Made by a program: the position numbers and the translations under genes
Notes under the pieces: generated by a model
What the model was told of the DNA's origin: nothing
The model's input: the letters and a program-made list of their open reading frames with translations, nothing else
The model's database searches: none
Shown: in pieces, positions 10,603 to 22,991 of the stretch
How the letters are laid out: each line of letters opens with the position of its first letter
Position numbering within the stretch: position 1 is the first letter of the stretch
Assembly: GCA_028817665.1 (NCBI GenBank)
Contig: JAPPPF010000047.1
Coordinates: forward strand, 1 to 37,195
Reading direction: 5' to 3'
Length of the DNA stretch: 37,195 bases
Origin: Magnetovibrio sp.
Lineage (GTDB): Bacteria > Pseudomonadota > Alphaproteobacteria > Rhodospirillales > Casp-alpha2

Positions 10603-12018
10603 ATGAGACGTTTCAGAAAGGCCAAGATCGTCGCCACTTTGGGCCCGGCGACCTCGGACGAGGCCGCCATCGCGCGCCTGTTCGAGGCCGGCGCCGACGT
10701 GTTTCGGCTGAACTTCAGCCATGGCGCCCACGAGGACCACGCCGAACGGGTGACGACCATCCGCCGCCTCGAGGAGACCTTCCGCCGCCCCATCGGGATC
10801 GTCGCCGACCTGCAGGGCCCGAAACTCAGGGTCGGCGAATTCGCCGAGGGCAGCGTCCGGTTGAAGACTGGCGGTGCCTTCCGGCTCGATCTCGACGCGG
10901 CGCTCGGCGACGCCGGCCGGGCGCCGCTGCCGCATCCCGAGATTTTCGCCGCCCTCGAGCCGGGCATGGGGTTGTTGATGGACGATGGGCGGATCCGCCT
11001 CGAGGTCACCGAGGCCGGCGCCGACTTCGCCGACACCCGGATCGTCACCGGTGGCGATCTCTCCAACCACAAGGGCGTCAACGTGCCCGACGCGGTCCTC
11101 GACCTGTCGCCGCTGACCGAGAAGGACCGGACGGACCTGCGCTTCGCCCTGCAGGTCGGCGTCGACTGGATCGCGCTTTCCTTCGTGCAGCGGCCCGAGG
11201 ATATCGCCGAGGCCCGCAAGCTGATCGCCGGCCGCGCCGCGGTGATGGCGAAGCTCGAGAAGCCGATGGCGCTGAACAGCCTCGAGGAGATCGTCAGCCT
11301 GTGCGACGCGATCATGGTGGCGCGCGGCGACCTCGGCGTCGAGATGCCGCCCGAGGAGGTGCCGATCCAGCAAAAGCGGATCGTCGCCGCGTGCCGGGCC
11401 GCCGGCAAGCCGGTCATCGTCGCCACGCAGATGCTCGATTCCATGGTCCACGCGCCGAGCCCGACCCGGGCCGAGGCCTCCGACGTCGCCACCGCCGTCT
11501 ACGACGGTGCCGACGCGGTGATGCTGTCGGCGGAGACGGCGGTTGGCGATTTCGCCCCGGAAGCCGTGACCATGATGGAGCGGATCATCGCCCGGGTCGA
11601 GAAGGACGACCATTACGCCAAGCAGCTCGAGGCCTCGCGCCTGCCGCCGGAGGCGACCGCCGCCGACGCGATCACCACGGCGGCGCGGCAGGTCGCGCAA
11701 ACGATCTCAGCGGCGGCCATCGTCACCTTCACCTCGACCGGATCGACGACCCTCAGGGCGGCCCGCGAACGCCCGACCGTGCCGATCCTCGGCCTGACGC
11801 CGCGGAAGGACACGGCCCGCCGCCTGGCGCTCGCCTGGGGCGTGCATTCCGTCGAGACCGAGGACCTGCACACCTTCCGCGACATGGTCGTCCGCGCCAT
11901 CGCGGTCGCCAAGCGAGAGGAAATGGCGGAAATCGGCGAAGCCATGGCGATCACCGCCGGCGTGCCCTTCGGCACGCCCGGCGCCACCAACATCCTGCGC
12001 ATCGCCTGGATCGAGTAG
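10603..12018 (+). CDS. pyk: pyruvate kinase
   Basis: RKAKIVATLGPATSDEAAIARLFEAGADVFRLNFSHG; MVARGDLGVEMPPEEVPIQQKRI; MLDSMVHAPSPTRAEASDVATAVYDGADAVMLSAETA. Confidence 0.97.
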   Translation: MRRFRKAKIVATLGPATSDEAAIARLFEAGADVFRLNFSHGAHEDHAERVTTIRRLEETFRRPIGIVADLQGPKLRVGEFAEGSVRLKTGGAFRLDLDAALGDAGRAPLPHPEIFAALEPGMGLLMDDGRIRLEVTEAGADFADTRIVTGGDLSNHKGVNVPDAVLDLSPLTEKDRTDLRFALQVGVDWIALSFVQRPEDIAEARKLIAGRAAVMAKLEKPMALNSLEEIVSLCDAIMVARGDLGVEMPPEEVPIQQKRIVAACRAAGKPVIVATQMLDSMVHAPSPTRAEASDVATAVYDGADAVMLSAETAVGDFAPEAVTMMERIIARVEKDDHYAKQLEASRLPPEATAADAITTAARQVAQTISAAAIVTFTSTGSTTLRAARERPTVPILGLTPRKDTARRLALAWGVHSVETEDLHTFRDMVVRAIAVAKREEMAEIGEAMAITAGVPFGTPGATNILRIAWIE

Positions 12019-12099
12019 GGGGCATTGCCGGCCTGGCGCCGGGCCTCTATACCGAAACATCGCCGGATCATCGCATTCGCCGCCTCGGGGGACGCCCGC

Positions 12100-12981
12100 G
12101 TGCTCGTTCAGATCTTCGCCGTCATCGCTCCGGTCTTCGCCTGCGCCGCCGTCGGCTTCGCCTGGGCGCGAATGCGGGTTCCCTACGAGACCGCCTTCGT
12201 CACCCGGCTGGTCACCAACGTCGGGTTCCCGTGCCTGATCTTCTCGTCCCTGCTGCGCGCCGAGATCACCCCGGAAACGCTCGGCATCATGGGGTTCGCG
12301 GCGCTGGCCACGACGGCGGCCTTCGCCGCCATCGGCGCCCTCGTGCTGTCGCTCTGCCGGATCGAGCTCCGCGCCTTCCTGAATTCCATGATCTTCGCCA
12401 ACACCGGCAACATGGGCCTGCCGCTCTGCCTGCTGGCCTTCGGCGAGGAGGGCCTGGCGCTCGCGATCGCGTACTTCACCGTTAACGGCACACTCACCTT
12501 CATCGTCGGCCCGGCCATCGCGTCGGGAAACGCCGATCCCCGCGAAGTGCTGAAGATCCCCATGGTCTGGGCGACCCTGGCGGGGCTGGCGGTGAAGCTG
12601 GCCGCGGTGCCGGTTCCCGAATGGGCGATGAAGACGCTGTTGCTGATCGGCGGGTTCCCGATCCCGCTGATGCTGATCACCTTGGGCGTGTCGCTGGCCG
12701 GGCTCAGGGTCGCGCACCTCGGGCGCAGCACCGGCCTCGCGCTGTTGCGCCTGGTCATGGGGTTCGGGGTGGGCTGGCTGGCCGCCGAGATGCTTGGCTT
12801 CGAGGGCGCGGCGCGCGGCGTCGTGATCATCGAGTGCGCCATGCCGGTGGCGGTCTTCAACTTCCTGTACGCGCAGATGTACGACAACCGCCCCGACGAG
12901 GTCGCCGGCACCATCGTCGTCTCGACGGTCCTTTCCTTCGCGACGCTGCCTTTGTTACTTTGGTACGTGATGGGAGGATGA
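12100..12981 (+). CDS. AEC family (auxin efflux carrier-type) transporter
   Basis: Likely GTG start at 12100; ~10 hydrophobic segments; NSMIFANTGNMGLPLCLLAFGEEGL and C-terminal MPVAVFNFLYAQMYDNRPDEVAGTIVVSTVLS. Confidence 0.9.
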   Translation: MLVQIFAVIAPVFACAAVGFAWARMRVPYETAFVTRLVTNVGFPCLIFSSLLRAEITPETLGIMGFAALATTAAFAAIGALVLSLCRIELRAFLNSMIFANTGNMGLPLCLLAFGEEGLALAIAYFTVNGTLTFIVGPAIASGNADPREVLKIPMVWATLAGLAVKLAAVPVPEWAMKTLLLIGGFPIPLMLITLGVSLAGLRVAHLGRSTGLALLRLVMGFGVGWLAAEMLGFEGAARGVVIIECAMPVAVFNFLYAQMYDNRPDEVAGTIVVSTVLSFATLPLLLWYVMGG

Positions 12982-12997: not shown

Positions 12998-13984
12998 ATG
13001 AAGATCACCTTGTTGGGGACCGGCACCCCGCATCCGTCGCTGAAGCGCGCGTGCTCGGGCTACATGATCGAGGTCGGCGACGACCTGATCGTCATGGATC
13101 ACGGGCCCGACGCGCACTGCCGTCTCTTGGAGAGCCCGCGCGCGCCGACCGAGGTCACCCACGTCTTCATCAGCCACCTGCACTACGACCACTGCCTCGA
13201 CTACGCGCGCCTGGTGCTGCAGCGCTGGGACGTCGGTGCCGGCAAGATCCCCGACCTCAAGGTCTACGGGCCGGCGCCGATCGCGCGCATGAACGACCTC
13301 CTGTTCCGCGAGGACGGCGTCTTCGGACCCGACGTCACGGCCCGCACGGAGCACGAGCTGAGCCTCGACATCTACAAGCTCCGGGGCGGCGTCCTGCCCC
13401 GCGCCCGCCCGGCGCCCGCGGTGACCGAGGTCCGGGTCGGCGACGTCGTCGAGGGCGGCGACTGGCGCGTCACCGTCGGCTACGCCTCGCACGTGCAGCC
13501 CTACCTCGCCTGCCTCGCCTTCCGCCTCGACGGGCCCGGCGGCTCCATGTGCTATTCCGGCGATTCGGGCGGCGAATGCGAGGAGATCATCGCGCTGGCG
13601 AAGGGCTGCGTTTTCGACGACGACCCCCAGATCCTGAAGCTGGTCACCCTGCTGCTCGAGCAGGCCGGTCACGAGGTCGTCGCCAGTTCCGCCGCCGACC
13701 AGGCGACCGGGATCGTCGTCACCCAGCTTCCCGACGTCGTCATCACCGACCGGATGATGCCGGGACGTGATGGGCTCGACGTGGTCCGGCGGCTGCGCCG
13801 GCGCAAGGAGCTGACCGGCCTGACGATCATTCTGATGTCCGTCGACAGCAGCGACGACGCGCGCTGGCGCCGCGAGGCGAAGGCCGCCGGCGCCGACGAT
13901 TTCATCGGCAAGCCCTTCGAGCTTGAAACCTTCGCCGGGAAGGTCGAGGACATCGCCCAGACGCGGCGTGGCGGCGGCGCCTAG
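12998..13984 (+). CDS. fusion: N-terminal metallo-beta-lactamase fold domain (C-terminally truncated) + C-terminal response regulator receiver domain
   Basis: MBL motif SHLHYDHCLDY, later His (ASHV), SGDSGG; abrupt switch after EEIIALAKGC to receiver domain FDDDPQILKLVTLLLEQAGHEV...PDVVITDRMMPGRDGLDVV...IILMSV...GADDFIGKPFE. Confidence 0.9.
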   Translation: MKITLLGTGTPHPSLKRACSGYMIEVGDDLIVMDHGPDAHCRLLESPRAPTEVTHVFISHLHYDHCLDYARLVLQRWDVGAGKIPDLKVYGPAPIARMNDLLFREDGVFGPDVTARTEHELSLDIYKLRGGVLPRARPAPAVTEVRVGDVVEGGDWRVTVGYASHVQPYLACLAFRLDGPGGSMCYSGDSGGECEEIIALAKGCVFDDDPQILKLVTLLLEQAGHEVVASSAADQATGIVVTQLPDVVITDRMMPGRDGLDVVRRLRRRKELTGLTIILMSVDSSDDARWRREAKAAGADDFIGKPFELETFAGKVEDIAQTRRGGGA

Positions 13985-15396
13985 AGCGCCGGGACCGGCC
14001 GGGCCATCTCCGGAATATCCGCGAACACCGCCTCCAGGGCCTTGGCGGCCCTGAGCACCTTGGCGTCGCCGCGCCTCGGCCCGACGATCTGGAAGCCGAA
14101 GGGCATGCCTTCCTCGTCGACCCCGCAGGGCAGGCAGACGACCGGGTTGCCGGTCGTCGAGAGGGCGTTGGTGAGCCCCGCCCAGGCGACGTAGGTCGGC
14201 TGTTCGACGCCGTCGACGGCGGCGACGTAGAGATCCTCCTTGGGAAACGGCGACACCGTGGCGCCCGGGCAGATGAGGACGTCGTAGGCGCCGAAGAAGC
14301 GGTCCATCTCGCGGTGCAGGTCGCCGTGCTCGGCGAACGCCCAGACGACGTCGTCGACCTCCAGTTCCAGGGCCTGCTCGTAGTTGAGGCGCACGTTCGG
14401 GCCGAGCTTGTCTCGGTGCTCGGCGTAGTGCCGCTTCTGGCTGCCGAGGTACTGGAGTCCCCGGATCACCCAGTTGACGCGGGCGGCGGTGCCCAGGTCC
14501 GGGTGCGCGACCTCGGCCTCGGCGAACAGGCCGGCCATGCGGCCGACGCGGTCGTCGAAGACCCGGCGGATCGCCCGGCTGGTCGGCGCGAAGCCGAGGT
14601 CCGGCGAGAAGGCGACGCGGAGGCCGCCGAGGTCGGCGGGCGTGATCCCGAGGAAGGCGCGCGGGTCGCGCGGATAGCTCATCGGGTCGATGGAGTGGTC
14701 GCGGGCCATGGCGGCCGCGAGCAGGCCGACGTCGTCGACGCCGCGCCCCATGGGGCCCTGGAGCTGGAACGGCCAGTAGGGATAGGTGCGGCGCTCGAAG
14801 GGGATCAGGCCGGGCGTCGGCTTCAGGCTGGCGACGCCGCAAAAGGTCGCCGGCACGCGTAGGCTGCCGCCGGTGTCCGAGCCCGTCGCGATCGGCACCA
14901 TGTCGCAGGCCAGCGCCGCCGCCGACCCGCCGGACGAGCCGCCGCTGGTCCGCGCGTGGTCGAAGGGATTGACCGTTGGGCCGAACACGGCGTTGGTGGT
15001 GTTGTTGCCGGCGCCGAACTCGGTGGTGTTGGTCTTGCCGCAGATCACGGCGCCCGCGTCACGCACGAACCGGACCACAAGGTCGTCTTGGTCGGGAACG
15101 AAATCGGCGTAGATGGGCGAGCCGAAGGTGGTGCGGAGCCCCCTGGTCAGGCTCATGTCCTTGATCGCCAGCGGCAGTCCGGCGAGCAGGCCCATGTCGT
15201 CGCCGGCCATCAGCCCGGCCTCGATCTCGCCGGCGCGGGTTCTGGCTTCGTCGAAACAGGTCGCGGTGAAGGCGTTGATCGCCGGGTCGGCGGCCTCGAT
15301 CCTCCGGATGTAGGCGTCCAGCACCTCGCGGGGGGAGACCTCCTTGGCGCGCATCATCCGGCCCAGTTCGACGGCGCTCCGTTCGATCAGTTCCAT
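13981..15396 (-). CDS. amidase (amidase signature family)
   Basis: LAGLPLAIKDMSLTRGLRTTFGSPIYADFVPDQDD, GKTNTTEFGAGNNTTN, TSGGSSGGSAAALACDMVPIATGSDTGGSLRVPA. Confidence 0.95.
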   Translation of the reverse strand: MELIERSAVELGRMMRAKEVSPREVLDAYIRRIEAADPAINAFTATCFDEARTRAGEIEAGLMAGDDMGLLAGLPLAIKDMSLTRGLRTTFGSPIYADFVPDQDDLVVRFVRDAGAVICGKTNTTEFGAGNNTTNAVFGPTVNPFDHARTSGGSSGGSAAALACDMVPIATGSDTGGSLRVPATFCGVASLKPTPGLIPFERRTYPYWPFQLQGPMGRGVDDVGLLAAAMARDHSIDPMSYPRDPRAFLGITPADLGGLRVAFSPDLGFAPTSRAIRRVFDDRVGRMAGLFAEAEVAHPDLGTAARVNWVIRGLQYLGSQKRHYAEHRDKLGPNVRLNYEQALELEVDDVVWAFAEHGDLHREMDRFFGAYDVLICPGATVSPFPKEDLYVAAVDGVEQPTYVAWAGLTNALSTTGNPVVCLPCGVDEEGMPFGFQIVGPRRGDAKVLRAAKALEAVFADIPEMARPVPAL

Positions 15397-15532
15397 GTCC
15401 CCATCCTCCCGTTCCACCGCCGTTCATGATCCGCCGATCGCGGTCGGGGTCAAGGGGAACCGGCGCGCATGGGCCGATGCACGGCGGCGACGGCGGCTTG
15501 CCCTGGCGCCGGGCTCGGGTATGATCCCGGTC

Positions 15533-21209: not shown

Positions 21210-22991
21210 TTAGAGCTTCCAATCATGCGCCGCGCCGTAGGAGAAATCGGCGGGGAGGATGCCCGCGCCCGCGCCGACGCTGACGCCGAAGCCCTGGACG
21301 TCCTTGAACTCCTCGTCGATGGCGATGCCGATGCCGCCCGAGACGATCTTGAACGGCCCGCCGGCCAGCGCGAAGCTGTGGCCCCATCCGGCGAAATCAT
21401 CCAGGGACGCCTTCGGATAGAAGCCGATGTCGAAGCTGGCGCCGCCGGCGACGTTGGTGATGATGCCGGGGCCGATGCCGATGAAGGCGCCGATGTTGTC
21501 GCGGTAGTCGGTGGCGACCGTGAAGGTGAATGAGCCGCCGATCACGGCGCCGGCCGACGCGGTGATCCCGTAGGTCATGTAGAAGTGCCCGTCGGCGGCA
21601 TTGGCGGACTTGATGAACAGGTTCTCCAGGATGCCCGCCTTCTTGAAGGTCTTCTCGGGCTTCAGCTTGAGCTTGGCCAGCTGGCTTTTGCGCTGCGCCG
21701 GGGTCATGGTGCAGAACTTCTCGTTGGAGAAGATGTTGATGAACGTCTTCACATTCTTGGCCGACTGCCGGCCGATCGCCTCGACCTCCTTCAGGGTGTC
21801 GCCGTAGGGACCGATCTGCTTGCTCACCAGATTGATGAAGTCGTTCTTGGCCTTCTTGGAGTTGAAGGCCTTGCCCGCCTTCTTCGCCGCCTCTCCGGCC
21901 AGTTTGCCGAGCCCGTCGAAGTTGGGCACCACCTTCTTCACCTGCTTGGCGATCTCGCCGACTTTCTTGCCGGCCTTCAGCACCCGCACGGCGGTCAGGC
22001 AGATCGCCGTGTTGGTGGGGATGCACTTGTTGGCGATGAAGTCCTCGGCGAGGCCCTTGTTGAACGACGGCACCCGTTCGACGATCAGGCAGGGCCGCTG
22101 GTTCTTCTTGCCGCACTCGTTCTTCTTGTAGCATTTGCCGCGCACGTCGACGTTGCCCGAATCGCAGGCCTTGCCGACGTTGATGGTGCAGGCCGCCTTG
22201 TGGGTGACCGGGTTGGCGTTGCGGAAGTAGTCGGACGGGCACGACCAGCATTCGCCGCCCTTGCGGGGATCGAAGAAGCTGCCCTTCTTGCAGCCGAACT
22301 TGCCCTTGTATTCGGCCTTCATCAGGGCCGCCTTGGTGACCTCCTCGCAGGCCTTGGACGAGGTCACGGAGAATACCGTCCGCTTGGCCCCCGAACAGGT
22401 CCAGTACTCACCGCCCTTGCGCGGGTCGACGAAGGCGCCCTTCGGTTTCGGCGCGTCGACCTTGCCCAGGTACTCGGCCTTGGAAAGCTTCTCGCCGATG
22501 ATGTTCTTGGTCGCGCAGGCGCGCTTGTCGGTGACCGCGTAGGCGGTGCGCCTGGGCCGGTTCTTCGGGCAACGCCACCATTCGCCGCCCTTGCGCGGGT
22601 CGTGGAAGGCGCGGCTGGGCTTCGGGTTCTTGGTCTTGCCGAGATACTTGGCCTTCGAGAACTTACTCGAGGCCCGGCGCTCGCAGGCCTTCTTCTCGTT
22701 GACGGGGAAGATCGTGCGGTGCGTGCCCGACGGGCATTACCAGCATTCGCCGCCCTTGCGGGGATCGAAGAAACTGCCCTTGGGACAGGCGTTCTTGACG
22801 AACGTGGCCTTCTCCGTGGTGCAGATCTTCTGGCCCTTGCCGCCGCAATTCGGCGTCGCCGCCGCCGCCGGGCCGGCGGAAAGGGTCAACGCGAACAAGA
22901 GGCCGGCGAGGCCGGCCACGGACATGGACAACCCAGGCACGAAAAAACGACGCGGAAAACGAATTTTGTGTACTCCCCAATTCATCCCCAA
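21210..22991 (-). pseudogene. secreted DPRKGGE-W-C repeat protein interrupted by one in-frame TAA (22737-22739)
   Basis: Signal peptide (SVAGLAGLLFALTLSAGPAAAA), then four KG(S/A)FxDPRKGGE(C/W/Y)W repeats in one frame; only the TAA separates ORF 22737-22991 from the rest, which ends at 21210 with a Gly-rich domain. Confidence 0.7.

Follow-up and report, generated by a model that had tools for sequence, protein, structure and literature searches.

Positions 12998-13984 of the window (the whole stretch of 37,195 nucleotides analysed here, from a Magnetovibrio sp. draft genome) read as the first two thirds of a gene for an ordinary metal-dependent hydrolase of the metallo-beta-lactamase (MBL) type, followed in frame by an equally ordinary, complete response-regulator receiver gene, and we consider that this fusion probably arose by a recent in-frame deletion that disabled the hydrolase and kept the receiver readable. 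The frame contains no internal stop, and both halves exceed their Pfam gathering scores, with Lactamase_B at residues 18-200 (38 bits against a cut-off of 22.7) and Response_reg at residues 205-313 (74.8 bits against 30.2). The in-frame MBL-receiver fusion claimed in the preliminary description is thus real as sequence; both matches lie far above chance, and the real question is that of the frame's origin. The features concerned are:

12025..12981, + strand: AEC-type permease gene (Mem_trans), the next gene upstream of the fusion (Pfam)
12998..13984, + strand: fusion ORF, 328 aa plus stop (ORF reading, Pfam)
12998..13606, + strand: RNase Z/arylsulfatase-like MBL, first 203 residues (Pfam, alignments, relatives' loci)
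13601..13615, + strand: junction AAG GGC TGC GTT TTC, K202-G-C-V-F206 (codon comparison with orthologs)
13601..13981, + strand: CheY-like receiver, complete apart from the lost start codon and perhaps 1-2 residues (Pfam, ortholog in a sister genome, model)
13981..15417, - strand: amidase-like ORF, convergent, with a 4 bp overlap with the fusion's stop (ORF reading)

The MBL half shares its LGTGTP start, HxHxDH motif, H165 and D189 with RNase Z/arylsulfatase-like MBL-fold hydrolases (Lactamase_B, Lactamase_B_2; PDB 8gyg, 6kns, 1y44), and is about 45-71% identical over residues 1-203 to uncharacterised MBL orthologs, mostly from Alphaproteobacteria. The nearest NCBIfam models, the RNase Z and NF041851 equivalogs, score far under their cut-offs (56.3 against 292.95 bits and 57.8 against 400 bits, respectively); the intact MBL of a sister genome of the same genus, G003, is under them too (92 and 82 bits). 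The ligands H60, H62, D64, H65, H165 and D189 are all kept, with the HxHxDH motif, third histidine and bridging aspartate of the MBL fold in place, and are invariant in alignments A3 and A5. Unlike the known hydrolases, however, the fusion lacks the C-terminal ~97 residues, with their conserved histidines including the last metal ligand, so that the complete alpha-beta-beta-alpha fold is not present and receiver sequence follows residue 203 instead. The statement that such MBL domains normally run on to their own C-terminus is confirmed, since a match to this conserved region is carried by 54 of 54 relative MBL loci (L009-L018, L020-L044 and L107-L125, some of these being one genome represented twice). 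The same C-terminus, used as a query, was found in seven other genomes serving as controls and nowhere in the window's genome (G000); because the latter is a draft assembly of 312 contigs with 85.67% completeness and 3.3% contamination, the 3' part of the MBL gene could be unassembled or unbinned. As the strands of the second half and the last histidine ligand are gone, the MBL encoded here is most likely inactive or crippled as a hydrolase.

The retained part of the MBL shows no sign of decay. It departs at one of the 39 columns that are invariant in 36 relatives (G47P) and at one of another 23 columns with at least 90% conservation, i.e. at two of 62 in total, where intact relatives depart at 0-6; relative-rate tests found no excess change on its branch. 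Given this lack of accelerated change and the six ligands kept, the comparison points to one of three situations: the truncation is recent, this half remains under constraint, or the real genome does not have the truncation.

The receiver half (approximately residues 202-325) has the phosphorylation pocket given in the preliminary description, which is confirmed as the acidic pair D207/D208, the phospho-acceptor D251, S281 and K305, and which it shares, together with a full predicted fold, with short stand-alone CheY-like receivers (Response_reg). For AlphaFold2 modelling, separate alignments (A5 and A2) were used, mixed rows of MBL and receiver sequences being misaligned and left out. With receiver relatives, the model predicts a full (beta-alpha)5 set with beta1 at 202-206 (elements 202-206, 210-222, 226-230, 233-243, 247-251, 259-267, 276-282, 287-297, 301-305 and 309-325), with mean pLDDT over 10-residue blocks of 93-97 from 201 to 320, except for 79 at 281-290, and a target TM of about 0.9 against solved receivers. 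With MBL relatives, most of residues 21-165 are modelled with confidence and pLDDT drops below 50 beyond residue 203; in neither model are the two halves well treated together. The suggestion that the receiver might complete the MBL fold accordingly finds no support, the receiver being predicted as a complete domain of its own.

A close receiver ortholog was found only in G003 (59% identity), where it is a separate 127-aa gene with a TTG start two codons past an in-frame TAG (protein MKFCIFDGDQ...). From this start and the predicted fold, the earlier view that both domains are clipped holds for the MBL, cut at residue 203/204, but not for the receiver (K-G-C-V-F-D...), which keeps everything except its start and is missing little more than the initiator. 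In contrast to stand-alone receivers, it has lost its own start codon and forms the C-terminal end of a longer frame; if translated, it would most likely still work as a response regulator of one domain, to which a bulky stub is attached at the N-terminus. From the sequence, an in-frame ATG at residue 184 (13547) is another possible start, and would give a 145-aa receiver preceded by a short leader. In the G003 receiver glycine stands in place of the pocket's second acidic residue (D-G-D). Like the receiver at L101:13199-13582, further short receivers of the order (L147, L148, L149) open with K-[FL]-[CFY]-[ILV] at the very first codon.

Gene order bears on which of the two halves is at its original place. 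Upstream of the fusion, the window and G003 have in common the order mscS-like channel, vWA-domain protein, alcohol dehydrogenase, peptidyl-prolyl isomerase, meaB-like GTPase, pyruvate kinase (pyk) and AEC permease (named from sequence reading, AEC by Pfam). After AEC come a GST gene and then the receiver in G003, and the MBL part and then the receiver in the window; a receiver after pyk-AEC was seen only in these two genomes. The G003 receiver (pyk-AEC-GST-receiver) is on contig 150, and the intact MBL, of 300 aa from ATG, is on contig 25, with a LysR-like gene and an ABC transporter next to it. Given the synteny, the receiver is in its native place in the window; the MBL is the newcomer or has moved. 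Separate intact genes in relatives, as expected if two genes had been joined, do therefore occur in G003, but on different contigs and not adjacent to one another. Beside relatives' MBL genes there were no AEC, pyk, GST, amidase or receiver genes, one 28%-identical amidase excepted, and so there is no direct witness of the order before a deletion. The amidase-like ORF of the window is not at the matching place in G003, and the LysR gene flanking the G003 MBL is matched only in part in the window's genome, at 43% identity or less. Across the order, pyruvate kinase followed by the AEC-type permease (window 10603-12981) is a conserved gene pair. In two relatives (L099:9360-16703 and L102:4369-11029), the intact MBL gene lies beside genes read from their sequence as a LysR-like regulator, a taurine/sulfonate-type-like ABC transporter and a TauD-like dioxygenase, and such neighbours hint at the substrate class.

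At the joint itself, the window reads CTG GCG AAG GGC TGC GTT TTC GAC, the MBL orthologs L108 and L109 have GGC TGC GAC GTG at this position, and the G003 receiver begins TTG AAA TTT TGC ATA TTT GAC. The junction thus resembles MBL orthologs through ...GGCTGCG and receiver orthologs from TGC on, TGC being common to both at the switch point, and TGCG too if the receiver's next codon began with G at that time, as it does today. We propose that the lineage probably once had a full MBL gene with the AEC permease gene on one side and a short stand-alone receiver gene on the other, and that a deletion running from MBL codon 203/204 to about receiver codon 2-4 would have removed the last ~97 codons of the MBL, any intervening DNA and the receiver's start codon. 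The breakpoint may perhaps lie at the shared TGC(G), although a match so short can arise by chance. The receiver, with its pocket intact, would still be translated as the tail of an MBL stub. A joint at the first codons of the receiver is what microhomology, or selection for a readable receiver, would give, and one deletion would account for both the joint position and the synteny, given that the MBL already lay between AEC and the receiver. No genome with an intact MBL in that place was found, the site being taken in G003 by the GST gene, and this intermediate stage is one that we infer. Of the three origins offered in the preliminary description, a recent deletion joining two genes is the best supported, because both genes are intact in G003 and no decay is seen in the MBL half.

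When the whole protein was used as query, residues 1-204 were matched many times (up to 71% identity) and so was the receiver, but no match spanned the two together among 297 genomes of the order (28 with a match), 385 of the class (13 with a match), the relatives, the GTDB contig scan or the plasmids; nothing on point was found in the literature on MBL-receiver fusions. This single occurrence, the fragmented draft and the undecayed MBL half would each fit an artefact of assembly or strain mixing, in which the true MBL and receiver genes are intact and the DNA separating them was omitted or misjoined during assembly. We regard such a chimera as a serious though less likely reading, by some way the stronger of the alternatives. 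The junction is unrepeated in the assembly (the next best match is 21 bases), and the apparent shared word TGC/TGCG is far shorter than an assembly k-mer. Because the receiver is in its syntenic place after AEC, a join from elsewhere would need two misjoins; otherwise, one misjoin within an AEC-MBL-receiver arrangement would have to occur at a shared word a few bases long. Furthermore, the join preserves both frame and strand and falls precisely on the first codons of the receiver, which also makes a chimera less likely than the deletion.

The novel MBL-receiver protein envisaged earlier found no support in these searches. In a working protein, phosphorylation of the receiver would control an MBL-type hydrolase, or the MBL stub would bind a metal or ligand for the receiver; the open frame, the six remaining MBL ligands, the intact receiver pocket and the absence of relaxed evolution in the MBL half are all compatible with this. 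Nevertheless, none of the homologs recovered has the architecture, the C-terminal strands of the MBL and its last histidine ligand are gone, and a receiver predicted to be complete on its own does not supply what is missing, so that we consider such a protein improbable. Still more remote is a newborn response regulator, fixed in the species, with the half MBL as a metal- or protein-binding module under receiver control.

An in-frame deletion (or an assembly error) can thus yield a chimeric frame that mimics a new domain architecture in a draft genome. Should the joint be real and be kept in other strains, it would illustrate how a fused signalling protein is born in nature; if not, the frame represents either a broken gene or an artefact, and serves as a warning where databases of architectures draw on draft assemblies. 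Elsewhere in the window, a gene for a Cys-rich repeat protein ending at 21210 has an in-frame TAA at 22737-22739 (- strand), where GGECW*CPSG stands against GGECWSCPSD in a later repeat; because the signal-like start belongs to the portion upstream of this stop, that gene also looks interrupted in the assembly.
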